Part shown: positions 6,045 to 40,798 of the stretch, in pieces
Layout of the letters: every line of letters starts with the position of its first letter
How positions within the stretch are numbered: the first letter of the stretch is position 1
Assembly (NCBI GenBank): GCA_027488935.1
Contig: JAIYAP010000022.1
Location: 124,001 to 188,000, forward strand
Direction of reading: 5' to 3'
DNA: 64,000 bases
Source: Saprospiraceae bacterium
Lineage (GTDB): Bacteria; Bacteroidota; Bacteroidia; Chitinophagales; Saprospiraceae
Notes under the pieces: generated by a model
What the model was told of the DNA's origin: nothing
Databases searched by the model: none
The model's input: the letters and a program-made list of their open reading frames with translations, nothing else
Made by a program: the position numbers and the translations under genes

Positions 6045-9035
6045 ATGCAGGCCAATTTGCGTTTTTTCATACTTATTGGAGGGTTATTCCTAAGTACTTT
6101 TTCTCAAAGTCAAACTACATTTCCTTTGCCCGCGCCATCTGATCCGCGCGAAGGATTGTATGCATTTACCAATGCGACTTTGTTTGTTGACTACAAAACA
6201 AAGCTCGAAAACGCCACTTTGCTGATCCGAAAAGGCAAAGTAGTGGCAAGTGGCGTCCAGGTAACGGTACCGAAAGATGCCGTTGTGGTAGATTGCAGTG
6301 GAAAGTATATTTACCCGGCTTTTATTGATTTGTATGCGCCGGGTTTTGGCCTTGTGACGCAAAATCCACTGCCCGGTCAAATCAATCCAAGCGCAAAAAA
6401 AGGCGCTTATGCCTGGAACGATGCCTTGCGTCCGGAATACCATGCCGCCCATGAATTCAGTTCGGATGGCAAAATGAATGCAGAATGGCGCCGAATGGGC
6501 TTTGGGGCCTTGCTTACGTTTAAGTCCGAAGGCATTGCGCGTGGCACGGGTGCCCTGGTCGCATTGAACGACGCAAAGGAACAAGAGAGCATTTTGCAGG
6601 GCAAAGCCGCCCATTTTTTGTCTTTTAGAAAAGGCCCAAGCAGCCAGGAATACCCCTCCTCCTTGATGGGTTGTATTGCCTTGTTGCGCCAAACCTACCT
6701 CGACGGACAATGGTACAAAGCGGAAGGATATAAAACCGAATATAACCTGGGCCTGGATGCCTGGAACACCGCGCAAACTTTACCCCAAATATTTGAAGCG
6801 AGCGACCGGCTGGATGTGTTGCGCATTGCCCGACTTGGGCAGGAATTTGGGGTTTCGTTTATCGTAAAATCGGCAGGCGATGATTATCAGCGCCTTGCAG
6901 AAATCAAAGCCAGCGGGCAGTCCCTGATTTTGCCCCTCAATTTTCCAGAGGGATTTGAGGTGAAAGACCCATTTGATGCCGAATTGGTATCCCTTAGAGA
7001 ACTCAAACACTGGGAAATGGCGCCTTCCAATCCGGCACAAGTTGCAGCGGCAGGCATTCCGTTTGTGCTTACCACCGCCGATTTGAAGGATAAATCAAAG
7101 TTCTGGGAAAATTTGCGCAAAGCCATCGAATATGGTTTGACCGAGGAGGCTGCGTTGAAAGCCCTGAGTTGGCAGCCCGCACAATGGTTGCATGCCGACG
7201 ACCGGCTGGGCAGCCTGGAGCAAGGAAAACTGGCCAACTTCCTGATTACCAATGGCAATATTTTCAAATCAGAAACAAAAATCCTGCAAAACTGGACCAA
7301 AGGAAACGCTTTTATCTTGAAAGACCCTGCCGATCAACTGCCTACAGGAATTTTGGGCGAATATCAAATGCAGCTGCAGGAAGCAACAGCCATCACTTTG
7401 GTAATTAAAGGCAGCCTTGATGCGCCAGAGGCTCACTTGCTGATGGGAACGGATACGACCAAACGCACCAAGGTGAATTTCACCTTCGACAATGGCCTGT
7501 ATTTCCTCTCCTTCGCAGCCGATTCTACCGAAAAAAGCCTCATCCGCCTATCCGGTGTGCTGGATGGAACCCAATTCAACGGTCGGGGCCAAAACGGCGA
7601 CGGACAATGGATCAACTGGCGGGCAGATCGGACAAAAGCAGGAACAGAAAGTGCATCCAATACCAAACCCGGTACGCCCAAAACGCCGCCCCAAATGGGT
7701 ACCTTAATGTATCCTTTTATCGCTTTTGGCCGACCAACCCTGCCCGTACAAAGTAACTTTTTGGTGCGCAATGCGACGGTTTGGACCAATGAGCAAGCAG
7801 GCAATTTAGAAAAAACCGATGTGCTGGTGCAAAATGGCAAAATCAAAAAGATCGGAACCGGCTTACCGGCCATGGCGGGCGTCACCGAAGTAGATGGCAA
7901 CGGCAAATACCTCACCGCGGGCATTATTGACGAACATTCGCATATCGCCGTGGCGCGCTCGGTGAATGAGGGCGGACAGGAATCGAGCGCAGAAGTGCGC
8001 ATTAGCGATGTACTGGACTCAGAAGACATTGATATTTATCGGCAACTGGCGGGCGGCGTTACGACGAGTCATATTTTGCATGGCTCTGCAAATCCAATTG
8101 GCGGTCAAACCCAGTTGATCAAATTGCGCTGGGGGTACGCACCAGAAGCACTCAAATTTCAGAATTGGCCTGGATTTATCAAATTTGCCCTCGGCGAAAA
8201 TGTAAAACAATCAAATTACGGCGATGGTCGGCGCTACCCGCGTACGCGCATGGGCGTGGAACAAACCTTTATCGATTACTTCACGCGGGCAAAAGAATAT
8301 GGTCGGGTTAAAAAATCGGGCAATCCGTATCGTAAAGACCTAGACATGGAGGCCTTGCTGGAAATTATTGAAAAACAACGCTTTATCACTTGTCACTCTT
8401 ATGTACAATCCGAAATTACGATGATGATGCGGGTGGCTGAGCGTTTTGGATTTAAGGTCAATACATTTACCCATATTTTGGAAGGATACAAGGTGGCCGA
8501 TAAAATGGCGGCACACGGGGTAGGCGGAAGTACGTTTAGCGATTGGTGGTCTTATAAATACGAGGTAATTGATGCGATTCCGCAAAATGCCAAATTGATG
8601 GCCGATCGCGGTGTGGTGGTGGCCATCAATTCGGATGATGCCGAAATGGCACGCCGCCTGAATCAGGAAGCGGCAAAATCGGTTCAATATGGCGGCATGA
8701 AAGAAGCAGATGCCTGGAAGATGGTCACGCTCAATCCAGCCAAACTGCTCAAAATAGACGATCGGGTAGGGAGTATTAAGGAAGGCAAAGACGCCGATTT
8801 GGTGCTTTGGACCGGCAATCCGCTATCGGTATATGCGCGGGCCGAAAAAACCTGGGTGGATGGCACCTTATTTTTCGACCTGCAGGAAAACCAACAAATG
8901 CAAGAAGCCCTGCGGCTGGAGCGCAACCGCCTGATTCAAAAAATGCTGAATGTCAAAAACGGCAAGGAAGGCGGTGACCGCCCGGCCCCATCCAAAAAAT
9001 ATTATCACTGCGACAGCGACGACGACGAAGGTTAA
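6045..9035 (+). CDS. Exported tandem amidohydrolase-superfamily protein
   Basis: This 996-residue protein starts with a signal peptide (residues 1-23, cut near SQSQ) and holds two amidohydrolase-like halves. The C-terminal half is the convincing enzyme: it has the metal-binding HxH in IIDEHSHIA (H631, H633), FITCHSYVQSE and FTHILEGYK, and a late Asp region INSDDAEMA, ending with NPAKLLKIDDRVGSIKEGKDADLVLW. The N-terminal half keeps the fold signature (KYIYPAFIDLYAPG, residues about 88-100; ADDRLGSLEQGKLANFLI) but has no HxH. It is therefore probably a non-catalytic or structural domain. Such proteins of about 1000 residues are common in Bacteroidota periplasm; the substrate (perhaps a dipeptide or cyclic amide) is unknown. 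Confidence 0.87.
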   Translation: MQANLRFFILIGGLFLSTFSQSQTTFPLPAPSDPREGLYAFTNATLFVDYKTKLENATLLIRKGKVVASGVQVTVPKDAVVVDCSGKYIYPAFIDLYAPGFGLVTQNPLPGQINPSAKKGAYAWNDALRPEYHAAHEFSSDGKMNAEWRRMGFGALLTFKSEGIARGTGALVALNDAKEQESILQGKAAHFLSFRKGPSSQEYPSSLMGCIALLRQTYLDGQWYKAEGYKTEYNLGLDAWNTAQTLPQIFEASDRLDVLRIARLGQEFGVSFIVKSAGDDYQRLAEIKASGQSLILPLNFPEGFEVKDPFDAELVSLRELKHWEMAPSNPAQVAAAGIPFVLTTADLKDKSKFWENLRKAIEYGLTEEAALKALSWQPAQWLHADDRLGSLEQGKLANFLITNGNIFKSETKILQNWTKGNAFILKDPADQLPTGILGEYQMQLQEATAITLVIKGSLDAPEAHLLMGTDTTKRTKVNFTFDNGLYFLSFAADSTEKSLIRLSGVLDGTQFNGRGQNGDGQWINWRADRTKAGTESASNTKPGTPKTPPQMGTLMYPFIAFGRPTLPVQSNFLVRNATVWTNEQAGNLEKTDVLVQNGKIKKIGTGLPAMAGVTEVDGNGKYLTAGIIDEHSHIAVARSVNEGGQESSAEVRISDVLDSEDIDIYRQLAGGVTTSHILHGSANPIGGQTQLIKLRWGYAPEALKFQNWPGFIKFALGENVKQSNYGDGRRYPRTRMGVEQTFIDYFTRAKEYGRVKKSGNPYRKDLDMEALLEIIEKQRFITCHSYVQSEITMMMRVAERFGFKVNTFTHILEGYKVADKMAAHGVGGSTFSDWWSYKYEVIDAIPQNAKLMADRGVVVAINSDDAEMARRLNQEAAKSVQYGGMKEADAWKMVTLNPAKLLKIDDRVGSIKEGKDADLVLWTGNPLSVYARAEKTWVDGTLFFDLQENQQMQEALRLERNRLIQKMLNVKNGKEGGDRPAPSKKYYHCDSDDDEG

Positions 9036-36867: not shown

Positions 36868-36898
36868 TTGTGCGGCATGCTCTATTAGTCTACCTTTG
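36868..36898 (+). promoter_or_regulatory. Promoter of the first polycysteine leader
   Basis: TTG (36868-36870) precedes TACCTTTG (36891-36898) by 20 bases, fitting the Bacteroidota -33/-7 pattern. With the usual spacing transcription starts near 36902, at or one base before the leader ATG at 36903, so the leader peptide is probably translated from a leaderless or near-leaderless mRNA. Confidence 0.65.
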
Positions 36899-36902
36899 CA
36901 GT

Positions 36903-36986
36903 ATGATAATATTTTTTCAAATAAATATCTGTTGTTGTTGTTGCACTTTGCCCGCCGAAGCGCCTGCAACGCATTTATATGTTTGA
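36903..36986 (+). CDS. Polycysteine leader peptide 1 (27 codons) before the peroxiredoxin gene
   Basis: ATG at 36903 opens a 27-residue frame ending TGA at 36986. It begins MIIFFQINI and then has five consecutive cysteine codons (TGT x4, TGC; residues 10-14, bases 36930-36944), then TLPAEAPATHLYV. It lies right behind a promoter and is followed 39 bases later by an intrinsic terminator and then the peroxiredoxin gene. Cysteine is otherwise rare in these proteins, so the run is unlikely to be chance. The inferred role is regulatory: ribosomes would stall here when charged Cys-tRNA is scarce, allowing read-through into the downstream genes. Translation has not been shown. Confidence 0.7.
   Translation: MIIFFQINICCCCCTLPAEAPATHLYV
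36955..36967 (+). promoter_or_regulatory. Candidate antiterminator arm of attenuator 1
   Basis: CCGAAG (36955-36960) is fully complementary to CTTCGG (37036-37041) in the terminator's left arm, and CTGC (36964-36967) is complementary to GCAG (37026-37029). Pairing would break the terminator. The segment starts 25 bases after the first Cys codon, so it would be free when a ribosome stalls there and covered when the ribosome moves on to the stop codon. Confidence 0.5.
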
Positions 36987-37025
36987 TTGAGATAAAAAAC
37001 TGATTTCAAACATCTTAAGTACATA

Positions 37026-37069
37026 GCAGAAAGCCCTTCGGACATAACCGGAGGGCTTTCTGCATTTTT
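37026..37069 (+). terminator. Attenuator terminator 1, in the peroxiredoxin leader
   Basis: GCAGAAAGCCCTTCGG (37026-37041) pairs with CCGGAGGGCTTTCTGC (37048-37063) to give a 16-bp stem with one G-T wobble and a 6-base loop, followed by ATTTTTC. It stands between the leader peptide and the peroxiredoxin ATG at 37095, so it must be bypassed for the gene to be expressed from the leader promoter. Confidence 0.88.
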
Positions 37070-37094
37070 CTCCTCACTTTCAACTTACAAACAC

Positions 37095-37730
37095 ATGAGC
37101 TTACGACTTGGCGACATCGCCCCCAATTTCAAAGCACAAAGCACTGCTGGTGACATTGATTTGTACGAATACCTTGGCGACGGATGGGGTATCTTGTTTT
37201 CGCATCCTGCCGATTTTACGCCTGTTTGTACCACCGAATTGGGCCGCACCGCACAATTAGAGGAAACCTTCCGCCAAAAAAACACCAAAGTGTTGGCCGT
37301 AAGCGTCGATCCGCTCGATAAACATACCAGCTGGGTAAATGATATCAACGAAACCCAGCATGTTACCGTTGGTTTCCCCATTTTAGCCGATCCCGACCGC
37401 AACATTGCTACGTTGTATGATATGATCCACCCCAATGCTTCTGAAAACTTTACCGTCCGCTCTTTGTTCATTATCGGACCGGATAAAAAGATCAAATTGA
37501 CCATTACCTATCCGGCTTCTACGGGTCGCAATTTCCATGAAGTGCTGCGTGTATTGGAGTCCTTGCAACTCACAGCACAATACAGCGTTGCTACCCCGGC
37601 CAACTGGGAACACGGCGAAGATGTAATTGTAGTGCCTGCTGTAACGACCGAAGCGGCGATCGAAAAATTTCCAAAAGGCGTTACGGTGATTAAACCTTAC
37701 CTGCGTTACACCCCTCAGCCTGACCTGTAA
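37095..37730 (+). CDS. Peroxiredoxin, 1-Cys (PRDX6-like)
   Basis: This 211-residue thiol peroxidase reduces hydrogen peroxide and organic peroxides. The peroxidatic cysteine is C45 in HPADFTPVCTTELG and it is the only cysteine in the protein, so it is a 1-Cys enzyme that needs an outside thiol for recycling. The long C-terminal domain (WEHGEDVIVVPAVTTEAA...KPYLRYTPQP) is typical of the PRDX6 group. It is preceded by polycysteine leader 1 and followed by leader 2 and the cysteine operon, which suggests that expression follows cysteine supply. Confidence 0.95.
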   Translation: MSLRLGDIAPNFKAQSTAGDIDLYEYLGDGWGILFSHPADFTPVCTTELGRTAQLEETFRQKNTKVLAVSVDPLDKHTSWVNDINETQHVTVGFPILADPDRNIATLYDMIHPNASENFTVRSLFIIGPDKKIKLTITYPASTGRNFHEVLRVLESLQLTAQYSVATPANWEHGEDVIVVPAVTTEAAIEKFPKGVTVIKPYLRYTPQPDL

Positions 37731-37741
37731 ACCACTGCGTT

Positions 37742-37846
37742 ATGCCTTATCATTTCTGTTCATGTTGTTGTTGCTGTTGTTGTTCGTCCTGCCTTGCGGG
37801 TTCGAAGCGGCTGCTGTATGTGGTTTTACCAAAAAAGAATCCTTGA
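37742..37846 (+). CDS. Polycysteine leader peptide 2 (34 codons) before cysM
   Basis: ATG at 37742 opens a 34-residue frame ending TGA at 37846. After MPYHF it reads CSCCCCCCCSSC, that is nine cysteines in twelve codons with seven in a row (bases 37763-37783), then LAGSKRLLYVVLPKKNP. The stop is 36 bases before an intrinsic terminator, the same layout as leader 1. No promoter box is visible between the peroxiredoxin stop and this ATG, so it may depend on read-through from the peroxiredoxin transcript. An overlapping frame starting at 37762 would encode a leucine run instead. The cysteine frame is preferred because leader 1 has the same content and position, and because a cysteine synthase gene follows. 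Confidence 0.68.
   Translation: MPYHFCSCCCCCCCSSCLAGSKRLLYVVLPKKNP
37802..37807 (+). promoter_or_regulatory. Candidate antiterminator arm of attenuator 2
   Basis: TCGAAG lies just after the last Cys codon of leader 2 and is fully complementary to CTTCGA (37886-37891) in the left arm of the next terminator. It is the counterpart of CCGAAG in attenuator 1. In addition, CAACAACA near 37864-37871 is complementary to the TGTTGTTG of the Cys codons and could form a competing structure. Confidence 0.45.
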
Positions 37847-37882
37847 TTCGAATAAAGTAAAACCAACAACAAAACAGAAAGC

Positions 37883-37917
37883 GCCCTTCGATTCACCCGG
37901 ATCGAAGGGCTTTTTTT
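37883..37917 (+). terminator. Attenuator terminator 2, in the cysM leader
   Basis: GCCCTTCGAT (37883-37892) pairs with ATCGAAGGGC (37901-37910), a perfect 10-bp stem, and is followed by seven T. The bases before and in the left arm (CAGAAAGCGCCCTTCG) resemble terminator 1 (CAGAAAGCCCTTCG), which suggests common origin. It can end the peroxiredoxin transcript and controls entry into cysM. Confidence 0.88.
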
Positions 37918-37957
37918 ATGGCAAAACGCACCTTAAACTGATTCTAAAAACACAAAT

Positions 37958-38896
37958 ATGTCGAACGACGCGCATACCAAATCGGATTTAAAATTGCGAC
38001 AAGCCCTGCATGGCCTGCGCAAACACATCGGCAACACGCCTTTGCATGCCGTAAAAGGCCTGTTTTCGAAGCCGGGCGTTCAAATTTTTGCCAAAAAGGA
38101 GTGGGAACAATTTTCCGGCAGTGTAAAAGCGCGTGCTGCGTTTCACATTATCCGGGCTGCGATTGAAAGTGGCGATTTACATCCGGGCAAAACTTTATTG
38201 GATGCCACAAGCGGCAATACGGGCATCGCTTATGCGAGCATTGGGTTTGTATTGGGCATTCCTGTAACCCTCTGTTTGCCTGAAAATGCCAGCGCCGAAC
38301 GCAAAGAAATTTTGGAAAATTTCGGCGTAACGATCATTTACACCTCCCGGTTTGAAGGAACCGATGGCGCGCAGGAAGTGGCAAGAAATTTAGCCGCCGA
38401 CCGGCCCGATTTGTATTTTTATGCCGATCAGTACAAAAACGACCACAATTGGCAGGCGCATTATTTCGGTACCGCACTCGAAATTGTGGATCAGGTGCCC
38501 GACATCACGCATTTTGTGGCTGGACTGGGTACGACGGGTACGTTTGTGGGTACCGGCCGCCGACTTAAAGTGATTAACCCCGATATTCAATTGGTTGCCT
38601 TGCAGCCCGATTTGCCCATGCACGGACTGGAAGGTTGGAAACACCTGGAAACCGCCGTGGTACCCGGCATTTACGATGCCCATTTGGCCGATCGATTTGA
38701 AGAAATCAGCACCGAAGCCGCGTATCAACTCATTAAGGATGCCTGGAAATACGAACAATTGGAATTGAGTCCATCTTCAGCGGCCAATTTAGTTGGGGCT
38801 ATCCGGATAGCCAACACGCTTGAAAAAGGCGTGGTAGTTACGGTTTTGCCCGATAATGCCGATAAATATTCAGAAATCATTCAAAAACTCCTATAA
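37958..38896 (+). CDS. cysM: Cysteine synthase, CysM-type (probably CysO-thiocarboxylate dependent)
   Basis: This 312-residue PLP enzyme of the cysteine synthase family makes cysteine from an activated serine (O-acetylserine or O-phosphoserine) and a sulfur donor. The PLP lysine is K57 in QFSGSVKARAA, with the TSGNTGIAYA loop near residue 88 and GLGTTGTFVGTGRRLK near 187. The neighbours are a JAMM protease, a ThiS-like carrier and a MoeZ-like activator. This matches the CysM-Mec-CysO-MoeZ route known from Mycobacterium tuberculosis, where protein-bound thiocarboxylate is the sulfur donor, so that substrate is inferred here. The next gene starts 1 base after its stop. Confidence 0.9.
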   Translation: MSNDAHTKSDLKLRQALHGLRKHIGNTPLHAVKGLFSKPGVQIFAKKEWEQFSGSVKARAAFHIIRAAIESGDLHPGKTLLDATSGNTGIAYASIGFVLGIPVTLCLPENASAERKEILENFGVTIIYTSRFEGTDGAQEVARNLAADRPDLYFYADQYKNDHNWQAHYFGTALEIVDQVPDITHFVAGLGTTGTFVGTGRRLKVINPDIQLVALQPDLPMHGLEGWKHLETAVVPGIYDAHLADRFEEISTEAAYQLIKDAWKYEQLELSPSSAANLVGAIRIANTLEKGVVVTVLPDNADKYSEIIQKLL

Positions 38897-38897
38897 G

Positions 38898-39323
38898 ATG
38901 CTCATTATTGAACCTAAAATCAGACAATTAATCCTGGAAGATGCCCAGCAAGCATTCCCGGATGAATGCTGTGGTTTCGTGTTTGGCGACGAACAAGGCG
39001 AAACCCGCATTTTAAAAGATGTTCTGGTGGTGGAAAATGCAAAGGAGGGCGACAAACGCCGGCGCTTCGAAATTTCCCCCAAGGATTATCTCCGCGCCGA
39101 GCGGTATGCCCTGGAACATAATTTGAGTCTGCTCAGCGTGTACCACTCCCACCCAAGCGCCCCTGCCATTCCATCGGAGGCCGATCGCGTGGCTGCACAA
39201 CCTTATTTTTCGTACATCATTGTTTCCATTTACGATCGCGGACGCACCGAATTGCTGTCCTGGCGCCTCAACGACGATTTTCAATTTGAACCAGAACAAG
39301 TGCTGGAACACGCACACAACTAA
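38898..39323 (+). CDS. JAMM/MPN+ metalloprotease (Mec-like)
   Basis: This 141-residue zinc protease of the JAMM family shows E23 (PDECCGFVFG) and the motif H83-S-H85-PSAPAIPSEAD96 with the metal-binding HxH and Asp. In the mycobacterial pathway Mec releases cysteine from the CysO-cysteine adduct. Here it may also trim the two residues after the carrier's Gly-Gly. The start at 38898 lies 1 base after the cysM stop; a longer frame reaching back into cysM is not needed. Translational coupling is likely. Confidence 0.88.
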   Translation: MLIIEPKIRQLILEDAQQAFPDECCGFVFGDEQGETRILKDVLVVENAKEGDKRRRFEISPKDYLRAERYALEHNLSLLSVYHSHPSAPAIPSEADRVAAQPYFSYIIVSIYDRGRTELLSWRLNDDFQFEPEQVLEHAHN

Positions 39324-39335
39324 AAACAAATAAAC

Positions 39336-39614
39336 ATGGCAACTGTAATTATCCCAACCCCCCTGCGCAAATTCACCAACAACACCGCCAAATTAAATAT
39401 TGAAGCGGGTAATGTGGAGGAAGCACTGCTCGATCTTTCCACCAATTTTCCGGATTTGAAAAAACACCTGGTCGATGAACAAGGCGAAATCCGTTCGTTT
39501 CTCAATATTTTTGTGGGCGACGACGATATCCGCGACCTCGCATTGGGCAAAACACCCCTTTCTCAAGAAACCGTTGTGAGCATTGTGCCTGCTATTGCGG
39601 GCGGTTTGGCTTGA
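39336..39614 (+). CDS. cysO: Ubiquitin-like sulfur carrier protein CysO/ThiS/MoaD type
   Basis: This 92-residue beta-grasp protein carries sulfur as a C-terminal thiocarboxylate. It opens with ATVIIPTPLRKFTNN and has NIFVGDDDIRDL in the middle, as in CysO-type carriers. It ends VPAIAGGLA: the activating Gly-Gly is at 89-90 but is followed by Leu-Ala, so the chain must be cut after Gly90 before adenylation. It lies between the protease and the activating enzyme genes, which fits that need. Confidence 0.9.
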   Translation: MATVIIPTPLRKFTNNTAKLNIEAGNVEEALLDLSTNFPDLKKHLVDEQGEIRSFLNIFVGDDDIRDLALGKTPLSQETVVSIVPAIAGGLA

Positions 39615-39643
39615 ACCCGCATCACCTTTAAAACTGTAGAAAA

Positions 39644-40798
39644 ATGGCATCGTACCAGGATATTACCTTTTCAAAAGCAGAATTGGCGCGTTACGACCGG
39701 CATATCATCATCCCGGATTTTGGATTAGCGGCCCAACAAAAACTCAAAGCCGCCAAAGTGTTGGTTATTGGCTCCGGCGGCTTGGGCAGTCCGCTGTTGC
39801 TGTATCTCGCAGCAGCAGGCGTGGGCACCATCGGTATTGTCGAATTCGACGTGGTAGACGACAGCAACCTGCAACGCCAGGTGTTATTTGGCAAAAATGA
39901 TGTAGGTCGGGCAAAGGCAAGAGCGGCCAAAAGCAGGCTGCAGGCGCTCAACCCACATATCAAAATACAACTACACAACACCCGGCTTACGTCCGAAAAC
40001 GCCCTGCAAATCGTAAAAAAATACGATGTAGTGGCCGATGGAACCGATAATTTCCCGACCCGCTACCTCGTCAACGATGCTTGTGTGCTGTTGGGAAAAA
40101 CCAATGTGTACGCCAGCATTTTCCAGTTTGACGGACAGGTTTCGGTATTTAATTACCGCGACGCCGATGGTGTACTCGGCCCGAATTACCGCGATTTGTA
40201 CCCAACGCCGCCGCCGCCCGGTTTGGTGCCGAGTTGTGCAGAAGGGGGCGTTTTGGGTGTTTTGCCCGGCATTGTGGGCAGTATGCAAGCCAATGAGGTG
40301 ATTAAGGTCATCACCGGGGTGGGTACACCTTTGAGCGGACGTTTGTTTTTGTTTGATGCGCTCAATTTTGAAACGCGCACCTTCAACATCAAGCGCCGGG
40401 CCGACAACCCGCTGAATGGGGAAAACCCGAGCATCACCCAATTGATTGATTACGAGTTTTTCTGCGGTTTGAAAAATCCCGATGAAAAACCGGTCAAAGA
40501 AATCACCGTAGAAACCTTTTTGAAATGGCAGGCCTTGGGCGAACCCTATCAACTTATTGATGTGCGCGAACCCAATGAATACGAAACCGCCAACATCGGC
40601 GGCCTGTTGTTGCCTTTAGGTACCGTAACTGAACACGCCGACCAATTGCGCCGCGATGTAAAGGTGGTGGTGCATTGTCGTTCGGGCGTGCGCAGCGCCA
40701 AAGCCATCCGCGCCCTGGAAGCGCAGTACGGGTTGGATAATCTGTACAATTTGAAGGGTGGTATTTTGGCGTATCAGGAACAGGCGCAGGAAGTATAG
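39644..40798 (+). CDS. moeZ: Adenylyltransferase/sulfurtransferase, MoeZ/ThiF-rhodanese type
   Basis: This 384-residue two-domain enzyme activates the C-terminus of a sulfur carrier and loads sulfur onto it. The ThiF/E1-like domain has VIGSGGLGSPLLLYLAAAG near residue 42, the adenylation region and PSCAEGGVLGVLPG around residue 198. The rhodanese domain (about 283-384) carries the active cysteine C345 in VVHCRSGVRSAKAI. It closes the cysM-mec-cysO operon and lies 29 bases after cysO. It may also serve molybdopterin or thiamine carriers. Confidence 0.93.
   Translation: MASYQDITFSKAELARYDRHIIIPDFGLAAQQKLKAAKVLVIGSGGLGSPLLLYLAAAGVGTIGIVEFDVVDDSNLQRQVLFGKNDVGRAKARAAKSRLQALNPHIKIQLHNTRLTSENALQIVKKYDVVADGTDNFPTRYLVNDACVLLGKTNVYASIFQFDGQVSVFNYRDADGVLGPNYRDLYPTPPPPGLVPSCAEGGVLGVLPGIVGSMQANEVIKVITGVGTPLSGRLFLFDALNFETRTFNIKRRADNPLNGENPSITQLIDYEFFCGLKNPDEKPVKEITVETFLKWQALGEPYQLIDVREPNEYETANIGGLLLPLGTVTEHADQLRRDVKVVVHCRSGVRSAKAIRALEAQYGLDNLYNLKGGILAYQEQAQEV

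Follow-up and report, generated by a model that had tools for sequence, protein, structure and literature searches.

A 64-kb stretch of contig JAIYAP010000022.1 from a Saprospiraceae bacterium (the window, to whose full length all coordinates refer) carries, at 36868-40798, two short open reading frames (ORFs) with runs of Cys codons, each followed by a T-tailed hairpin. One stands before a peroxiredoxin gene (prx), and the other stands before cysM and its neighbors mec, cysO, and moeZ. We propose that both elements are cysteine-responsive, ribosome-mediated transcription attenuators acting in series from one promoter, a reading that we rate, from sequence and its comparison, at a probability of about 0.85. 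The anatomy of the two gates, their conservation, the three-way covariation of their pairing strands, and the placement of the promoter were observed directly. Fetched loci are designated by L-numbers and genomes by G-numbers, G000 being the host assembly of 6.28 Mb.

Anatomy of the two gates

The order of features is promoter, leader 1, terminator 1, prx, leader 2, terminator 2, cysM, and the genes for a JAMM peptidase (mec), a CysO-like carrier, and a MoeZ-like protein (Table 1). Domain matches agree in this with an earlier note on the DNA, which described two attenuators flanking prx and preceding cysM, JAMM, cysO, and moeZ. Each gate combines the features of an attenuator: a short ORF with an amino acid run, an intrinsic terminator before the gene, and a covarying antiterminator that excludes the terminator. 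Leader 1 has five consecutive Cys codons (36930-36944), and leader 2 has nine in all (37757, seven consecutive at 37763-37783, and 37790). The distances from stop codon to terminator, 39 nt for leader 1 and 36 nt for leader 2, reproduce those given before. In both leaders an antiterminator strand, segment 2, begins 9-10 nt past the last Cys codon and therefore at or outside the edge of a ribosome stalled there. Compared with dinucleotide shuffles, the leader RNAs fold with z-scores of −5.6 (leader 1) and −6.3 (leader 2).

The TACCTTTG box ends 4 nt upstream of the leader 1 ATG, a spacing also found in L034, L035, and L036, and leader 1 is probably leaderless or nearly so, its start site being placed from the position of the box; leader 2 lies inside the operon. 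Poly-Cys leaders occupy the equivalent site upstream of prx in 7 other genomes of the genus, and leader 2 is also kept in L033/G023.

The earlier note took the two gates for duplicated copies on the strength of a shared left-arm string. The string does occur, as CAGAAAGCCCTTCG in gate 1 and as CAGAAAG-CG-CCCTTCG in gate 2, but the CAGAAAG of gate 2 lies outside the perfect stem. It is weak evidence for duplication because AAAGCCCTTCGG-type arms are also found at other poly-Cys attenuators in the genus, before other genes. We rejected local duplication as the origin of the pair, having found no support for it beyond this clade-wide similarity of arms. A MAFFT alignment of the two window leaders alone did not bring their functional segments into register.

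Second gates vary among relatives of the window. In L041 (G010), a terminator-like hairpin without a Cys run lies between prx and cysM, and in L037 (G018), near position 7000, a Cys run and a pairing segment are present in an ORF that has no stop before the hairpin. Both elements are possibly decaying second gates.

Poly-Cys leaders before related cysM genes

Loci were collected with 13 aligned CysM proteins, and the best 80 of 225 were kept. Under a strict rule, an attenuator required an ATG-initiated ORF of at most 60 codons with at least four Cys in six codons, a T-tailed hairpin no more than 110 nt from the stop, and a position within 600 nt of cysM; 78 loci had the necessary 250 nt or more of upstream sequence. 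A Cys leader with a terminator was found in 61 of these 78 loci. The same rule applied to the 19 other amino acids gave Leu 7, Val 4, Ser 3, Met 2, Phe 1, Gly 1, and 0 for the others. Cys leaders with terminators numbered 0 on the reverse strand of the same upstream region and 0 in an equal-length (630-nt) region downstream. These comparative controls argue against chance as the source of the observation in the window. Among the 62 leader-carrying loci of the 78, 61 have a T-tailed terminator after the leader. Cultured bacteria with a cysM leader include Niastella yeongjuensis DSM 17621, Puia dinghuensis, and Flexithrix dorotheae DSM 6795.

A looser rule (three Cys in five codons, 2.5 kb upstream, 80 loci) gave 51 loci with one attenuator, 19 with two, and 10 with none. 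Among these ten, the contig ends at cysM in L100 and L127, L076 passes the strict rule, and L088, L116, L117, and L121 combine a Cys run with a terminator but offer no ATG under the rule; L058 has a terminator only, and L092 and L098 have neither element. L098, from a record titled Deltaproteobacteria, contains a cysM-mec-cysO-moeZ cluster resembling that of Bacteroidota; the 700 nt ahead of its cysM hold no poly-Cys leader, and the cluster may stem from horizontal transfer or from misbinning.

The earlier note had staked its proposal on similar leaders existing elsewhere, and many were found both in related genomes and in the wider phylum sample described below. Judged by these comparisons, the system is real and conserved, and it is far wider than the window alone.

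Two gates behind one probable promoter

The consensus TAnnTTTG is that of the flavobacterial sigma-A −7 element (PMC9723704). Of 95 leaders, 40 have an exact match in the 70 nt that precede the ATG, compared with a mean of 4.0 and a maximum of 13 in 200 shuffles. In serial loci, exact boxes precede 10 of 18 first leaders (the first leader of L114, with 3 Cys, was unscored) and 0 of 19 second leaders. The second gate is therefore probably inside the transcript. Some other serial loci, such as L118, L119, L124, and L126, do have a box with one mismatch ahead of the second leader. Between 36401 and 38000 of the window, exact boxes are found just at 36891, the promoter of leader 1, and at 36978, inside leader 1 and with no TTG about 20 nt upstream. 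A generic sigma-70 scan was uninformative (17 sites versus 14.5 expected), and Bacteroidota boxes were used in its place. From the prx stop to the cysM start, a scan for this one promoter type detected no TAnnTTTG box even with one mismatch; a strong promoter at that place was what the earlier note had named as evidence against its model.

Four further genomes (L034/G007, L035/G008, L036/G021, and L038/G035) preserve the succession of promoter, gate 1, prx, gate 2, and cysM. Together with the promoter placement, this order supports the earlier suggestion that gate 1 stands before the whole set and gate 2 adds control on the biosynthetic genes. If a single promoter at 36891 drives all of the genes, as we propose, then prx would pass one gate, and cysM-mec-cysO-moeZ would pass two gates reading the same signal.

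Serial attenuators occur in 17 of the 80 cysM loci after removal of doubtful second matches in L060 and L064, and additionally in the window and in G007. No gene separates the gates in 13 of the 17; a peroxiredoxin does so in three (L055, L059, and L072), and a YeeE/YedE-type pair does so in L069, at the same place as in L039. Extra DNA lies between the gate pair and cysM in L089, L125, and L126, with a peroxiredoxin there in L125, and L077, L090, L114, and L126 include serial leaders with a run of just three Cys. Direct tandem attenuators also precede cysH (L175) and a sulfite/nitrite reductase family gene (L211). Serial loci are scattered over the CysM tree. Over 76 scored rows, the serial state requires at least 13 changes, and well supported branches force at least 6, on a quickly built tree with SH-aLRT (Shimodaira-Hasegawa-like approximate likelihood ratio test) support only, in which gains are indistinguishable from losses.

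Terminator 2 directly follows prx, a single promoter type was scanned, and one-mismatch boxes occur before some second leaders. These points leave room for two unrelated parts, in which terminator 2 would be the ordinary terminator of prx, cysM would have an unseen promoter of its own, and gate 2 would act by itself and not in a series. We consider this rather unlikely in view of the distribution of exact boxes between first and second leaders, the 13 of 80 loci in which attenuators are adjacent with no gene between them, and the arrangement in G004 (L242, 2719-5644, reverse complement). In that cluster, cysM and the second attenuator are both missing, and the leader, the terminator, prx, mec, cysO, and moeZ remain.

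Alternative helices share the terminator left arm

In 92 of the 95 attenuators with at least four Cys, the Cys run is followed by an uninterrupted stretch that can pair with the left arm of the terminator over 5 bp or more. In these 92, segment 2 starts 7-41 nt past the run and never closer than 7 nt, with clusters at 8-14 and 17-26 nt, and 84% of the left-arm bases that it uses are also paired within the terminator. Because such a listing picks the best complementary stretch, shuffle and swap controls were needed. Against shuffled leader segments, the pairing of segment 2 with the left arm had a mean z of −2.16, and for 65 of 100 attenuators at most 5 of 100 shuffles were equally stable. When leader segments or terminators were exchanged between attenuators with different arms, the pairing averaged −14.2 kcal/mol for native and −9.6 kcal/mol for swapped combinations (95 attenuators). 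The native pairing ranked in the best 5% for 40 and within 20% for 70 of the 95 (Wilcoxon p = 3.5e-16, a value inflated by relatedness).

Covariation was scored in A4, an alignment of 14 selected attenuators from relatives of the window that includes both window copies. Pairing was retained in 91.8% of cells for helix 2:3 (segment 2 with the left arm) and in 94.3% for helix 3:4 (the terminator), and five cells in each helix were changed on both sides, a number reached by 0 of 500 shuffles in either case. Pairs changed on both sides numbered three in 2:3 (6/500 shuffles) and three in 3:4 (9/500 shuffles). The left-arm columns with double changes are identical for the two helices (135, 138, and 139), indicating that the compensatory changes preserve both alternatives. 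With the partner slid by one base, neither helix kept more than 64.3% of its cells paired, although this control is biased toward the favored reading because the structure was taken from one of the aligned sequences. Before prx, for example, the pair CCGAAG/CTTCGG of window leader 1 becomes CCGGAG/CTCCGG in L034-L036.

These data bear on a translational mode of control, in which the poly-Cys ORF would be a stall-sensing upstream ORF (uORF) that alters access to the downstream start and the hairpins would be incidental. Poly-Cys leaderless short ORFs act in this way in mycobacteria (PMC9031893, PMC13236596), and window leader 1 is also probably leaderless. The mycobacterial leaders, however, are described without conserved terminator hairpins (PMC1262725), whereas here a T-tailed terminator is present in nearly every leader-carrying locus (61 of 62, as given above) and both pairing partners of its left arm covary with that arm, making this explanation very unlikely. 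That the leader peptides themselves act, for instance as small Cys-rich metal- or redox-binding peptides, might be suggested by their extreme runs of five and seven consecutive Cys but is extremely improbable, as the sequence outside the run varies among relatives while the RNA pairing is kept (the CCGAAG/CTTCGG and CCGGAG/CTCCGG pairs) and a recurrent Chitinophagaceae "VED/VGD" ending encodes the GGTGGAG/GGTGGG strand.

Folding with a stalled ribosome and the proposed mechanism

To model ribosome stalling, each Cys codon in turn was taken as the stall site, the RNA as far as 12 nt beyond its start was omitted, and the downstream RNA was folded as it stands before the right arm is made. With the ribosome on any of the Cys codons (five in leader 1 and nine in leader 2), all 6 of 6 core antiterminator pairs formed. 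When the ribosome was placed on the stop codon instead, the terminator formed; here segment 2 is excluded by construction, as the RNA behind the ribosome is omitted. Without a ribosome, segment 2 of leader 2 pairs with the Cys codon region (1:2 helix), which in this model would keep termination as the default.

We infer translation of the leaders, stalling, and readthrough from these features, as well as a multiplied response of cysM relative to prx. When Cys-tRNA is plentiful, the ribosome would pass the Cys codons and segment 2, leaving the left arm free for the right arm, and the polymerase would stop. When Cys-tRNA is scarce, the ribosome would stall on the Cys codons, segment 2 would capture the left arm (segment 3) while the right arm has yet to be transcribed, and RNA polymerase would read through once the antiterminator had formed. 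Displacement of segment 2 by the moving ribosome is an assumption of the model.

Several results weigh against this mechanism. Once the complete hairpin is present, the minimum-energy fold always includes the terminator, whether or not a ribosome is stalled; readthrough must therefore be kinetic, with the antiterminator forming first. In leader 1, a protecting 1:2 hairpin is not evident, and the ribosome-free RNA would likewise form the antiterminator first. The stop codon lies 23 nt (leader 1) and 36 nt (leader 2) past segment 2, and a ribosome at the stop therefore does not simply cover that segment. In the swap control, 25 of 95 attenuators fail to beat 80% of swaps and 6 of 95 fall below the median swap, and pairing in the host metY leader is weak (native −9.1 versus −8.8). 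One of the five covariation measures, further pair types in A4, is at or near shuffle level: 4 in 2:3 versus a mean of 4.8 (500/500 shuffles) and 7 in 3:4 versus 6.1 (143/500). Finally, p values are overstated because related loci are not independent. On balance, these sequence-based results suggest that the system likely works as the earlier note proposed.

Linkage of prx gating to the cysM cluster

The prx sample comprised 17 orthologs from the genus with at least 80% identity, each with about 700 nt upstream. A poly-Cys attenuator precedes 8 of the 17, and all 8 are co-directional with genes of the cysM-mec-cysO-moeZ cluster. Of the nine orthologs without one, those of G024 and G026 have the cluster adjacent on the opposite strand, and around the other seven the fetched flank, at most 1.5 kb, shows none of the four cluster genes (the contigs of L224 and L236 break off directly after prx). 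Cysteine gating of prx thus goes with membership in a co-directional operon. In G005 (L200/L217, C2 ~37596-39200), prx lacks an attenuator and faces, in convergent orientation, a gene that has a poly-Cys attenuator and matches no Pfam family. The prx match of G010 in L230 has one in-frame TAG.

Genes of the operon and a wider set of cysteine attenuators

Rfam models at gathering score gave 0 matches in the 64-kb window, riboswitch and T-box models included, and a Pfam and NCBIfam search with the two leader peptides assigned no family. The best PDB match of the CysO-like carrier is 3dwg_C (E = 3e-9), labeled "9.5 kDa culture filtrate antigen cfp10A," which we take to be Mycobacterium tuberculosis CysO. 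The protein ends in GG-LA (39600-39614), and its GG would therefore have to be exposed by trimming before activation; the adjoining JAMM peptidase is a candidate trimming enzyme.

Table 1. Features of the two-gate operon in the window and further poly-Cys attenuators of the host genome
Feature	Position	Strand	Details
Probable sigma-A promoter, Bacteroidota type	36868..36898	+	TTG 36868-36870, 20-nt spacer, −7 box TACCTTTG 36891-36898
Leader peptide 1, MIIFFQINICCCCCTLPAEAPATHLYV	36903..36986	+	ATG 36903, stop TGA 36984-36986
Segment 2 of gate 1 (antiterminator strand), CCGAAG	36955..36960	+	Pairs with 37036-37041
Terminator 1 (attenuator hairpin)	37026..37063	+	16 bp, 10 G-C, then ATTTTTC
Peroxiredoxin (prx; AhpC-TSA + 1-cysPrx_C, 1-Cys type)	37095..37730	+	Downstream of gate 1 only
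Leader peptide 2, MPYHFCSCCCCCCCSSCLAGSKRLLYVVLPKKNP	37742..37846	+	ATG 37742, stop 37844-37846
Segment 2 of gate 2, TCGAAG	37802..37807	+	Pairs with 37886-37891
Terminator 2	37883..37910	+	12 bp, then TTTTTTT
cysM-like cysteine synthase	37958..38896	+	Downstream of both gates
JAMM/JAB peptidase (Prok-JAB; Mec-like)	38898..39323	+	
CysO/ThiS-like sulfur carrier	39336..39614	+	C terminus AGGLA
MoeZ/MoeB-like adenylyltransferase (ThiF + rhodanese domain)	39644..40798	+	
Host attenuator L245	G000:C40:557-685		Before PAPS-reductase-domain gene, then tetrapyrrole methylase
Host attenuator L246	G000:C76:4147-4290		Before cysH, then second PAPS-reductase-domain gene, cysD-like by eye
Host attenuator L247/L130	G000:C62:58386-58517		Before metY (O-acetylhomoserine sulfhydrylase subfamily, 670 bits)

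A covariance-model search, as the earlier note had suggested, extended the set within the host genome. The model was built from the 14 attenuators of A4, window copies included, and 150 of 2165 host candidates were scored. Five matches reached 58.9-81.8 bits, and the next reached 33.7; two of the five are the window copies used in building the model, and the remaining three are further poly-Cys attenuators (Table 1).

A pattern-led survey of 18 relatives (46 fetched stretches) gave 15 leader-terminator sites with a downstream ORF. Their targets include cysE-like genes (L169, L178, and L203, below the TIGR01172 cut-off), a cysK-like gene (L174), cysH (L170, L175 twice, L177, and L184), sulfite/nitrite reductase family genes (L207 and L211 twice), and, in L200, a gene without a Pfam match. 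A third leader precedes cysH in L034 and L035 (in L035 by similarity to L034) and a metY-like gene in L044. Targets in the host and its relatives are mostly sulfur genes, including a YeeE/YedE-type transporter. The leaders of L167 (DUF4395), L176, L260, L268, and L271 appeared doubtful or spurious by eye and were excluded from the regulon.

Model R1 was run over 148 phylum genomes, and 29 non-own loci were inspected. Its overall tally (138 genomes matched at E ≤ 0.01) was not used, as many listed matches span the terminator half only. Credible poly-Cys attenuators were present in 7 of the 29 loci, three identified by scan (L258, L262, and L263) and four by reading (L261, L265, L267, and L273). 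The leader of L258 stands before a cysK-like gene, and those of L262 and L263 stand before sulfite/nitrite reductase family genes. The other four, from GC-rich, distant members of the phylum (family group f30, genus group g51), have a six-Cys leader and a CCCCTCCGGAAGCTTCCG-type terminator ahead of what appears by eye to be a cysM-JAMM operon.

Relation to known systems

The trp and his operons carry the classical leader-peptide attenuators of the Yanofsky type (summarized in PMC3641672). Like these, the window elements have a codon run for the amino acid of the pathway, a choice between antiterminator and terminator, and an intrinsic terminator; they differ in responding to Cys, in occurring in Bacteroidota, in the probably leaderless leader 1, in a stop codon well past segment 2, and in the presence of two in series.

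In Actinobacteria, cysteine leader peptides without conserved terminators have been predicted (PMC1262725), and polycysteine leaderless ORFs of mycobacteria were tested by Canestrari 2020 (via PMC9031893, PMC9094748, and PMC13236596). These leaders share with the window the Cys run before sulfur or cysteine operons, and leader 1, with its 4-nt spacing, is probably leaderless as well. The earlier known leaders are described as translational or as lacking conserved terminators, whereas the window has T-tailed terminators and a covarying antiterminator. The Rhodobacterales uORFC-8-2 before cysS also combines Cys codons in a uORF with an intrinsic terminator, and ribosome-mediated attenuation was proposed for it (PMC8632094). 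It is a single alphaproteobacterial element with two Cys codons and cysS as its only target, whereas the window targets are prx and cysM-mec-cysO-moeZ.

Two leader-ORF attenuators in one leader mRNA are known from Salmonella mgtCBR, which its authors called a singular example of tandem attenuators with different signals (PMC3641672). That leader reads two signals, ATP and proline, without intrinsic terminators, whereas the window would read Cys twice, with two intrinsic terminators and a gene between them. For Bacteroidota, only general statements on leader attenuation were found in the open-licence literature searched: clues before amino acid operons in Flavobacterium psychrophilum (PMC9723704), leader-like small ORFs in Bacteroides thetaiotaomicron (PMC7366714), and a count of leader genes near start codons (PMC4833913). 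Serial cysteine attenuators with intrinsic terminators were not found for this phylum in that literature. The earlier description of the system as undescribed thus holds for the combination and the phylum within the literature searched, but not for cysteine attenuation as such.

Biological implications

At roughly even odds, the arrangement is a homotypic two-stage gate that multiplies the response to cysteine. In that event prx would rise at mild shortage, and the CysO-pathway genes would be tightly shut at first and then respond more steeply; Bacteroidota would have acquired or lost the gate on many occasions, within a widespread cysteine attenuation regulon whose operation requires transcription to be coupled to translation in organisms mostly devoid of Shine-Dalgarno sequences. 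Because the mechanism should fail without such coupling, coupling in Bacteroidota becomes directly testable. If our reading is correct, Bacteroidota possess a cysteine-sensing RNA regulon comprising prx, cysM-mec-cysO-moeZ, cysH, cysE, cysK, metY, sulfite reductase, and YeeE/YedE genes, which would require neither a protein regulator nor a metabolite-binding riboswitch. The operon in the window would then tie peroxide defense to cysteine supply within one transcript and would provide a natural example of one signal read twice in series.

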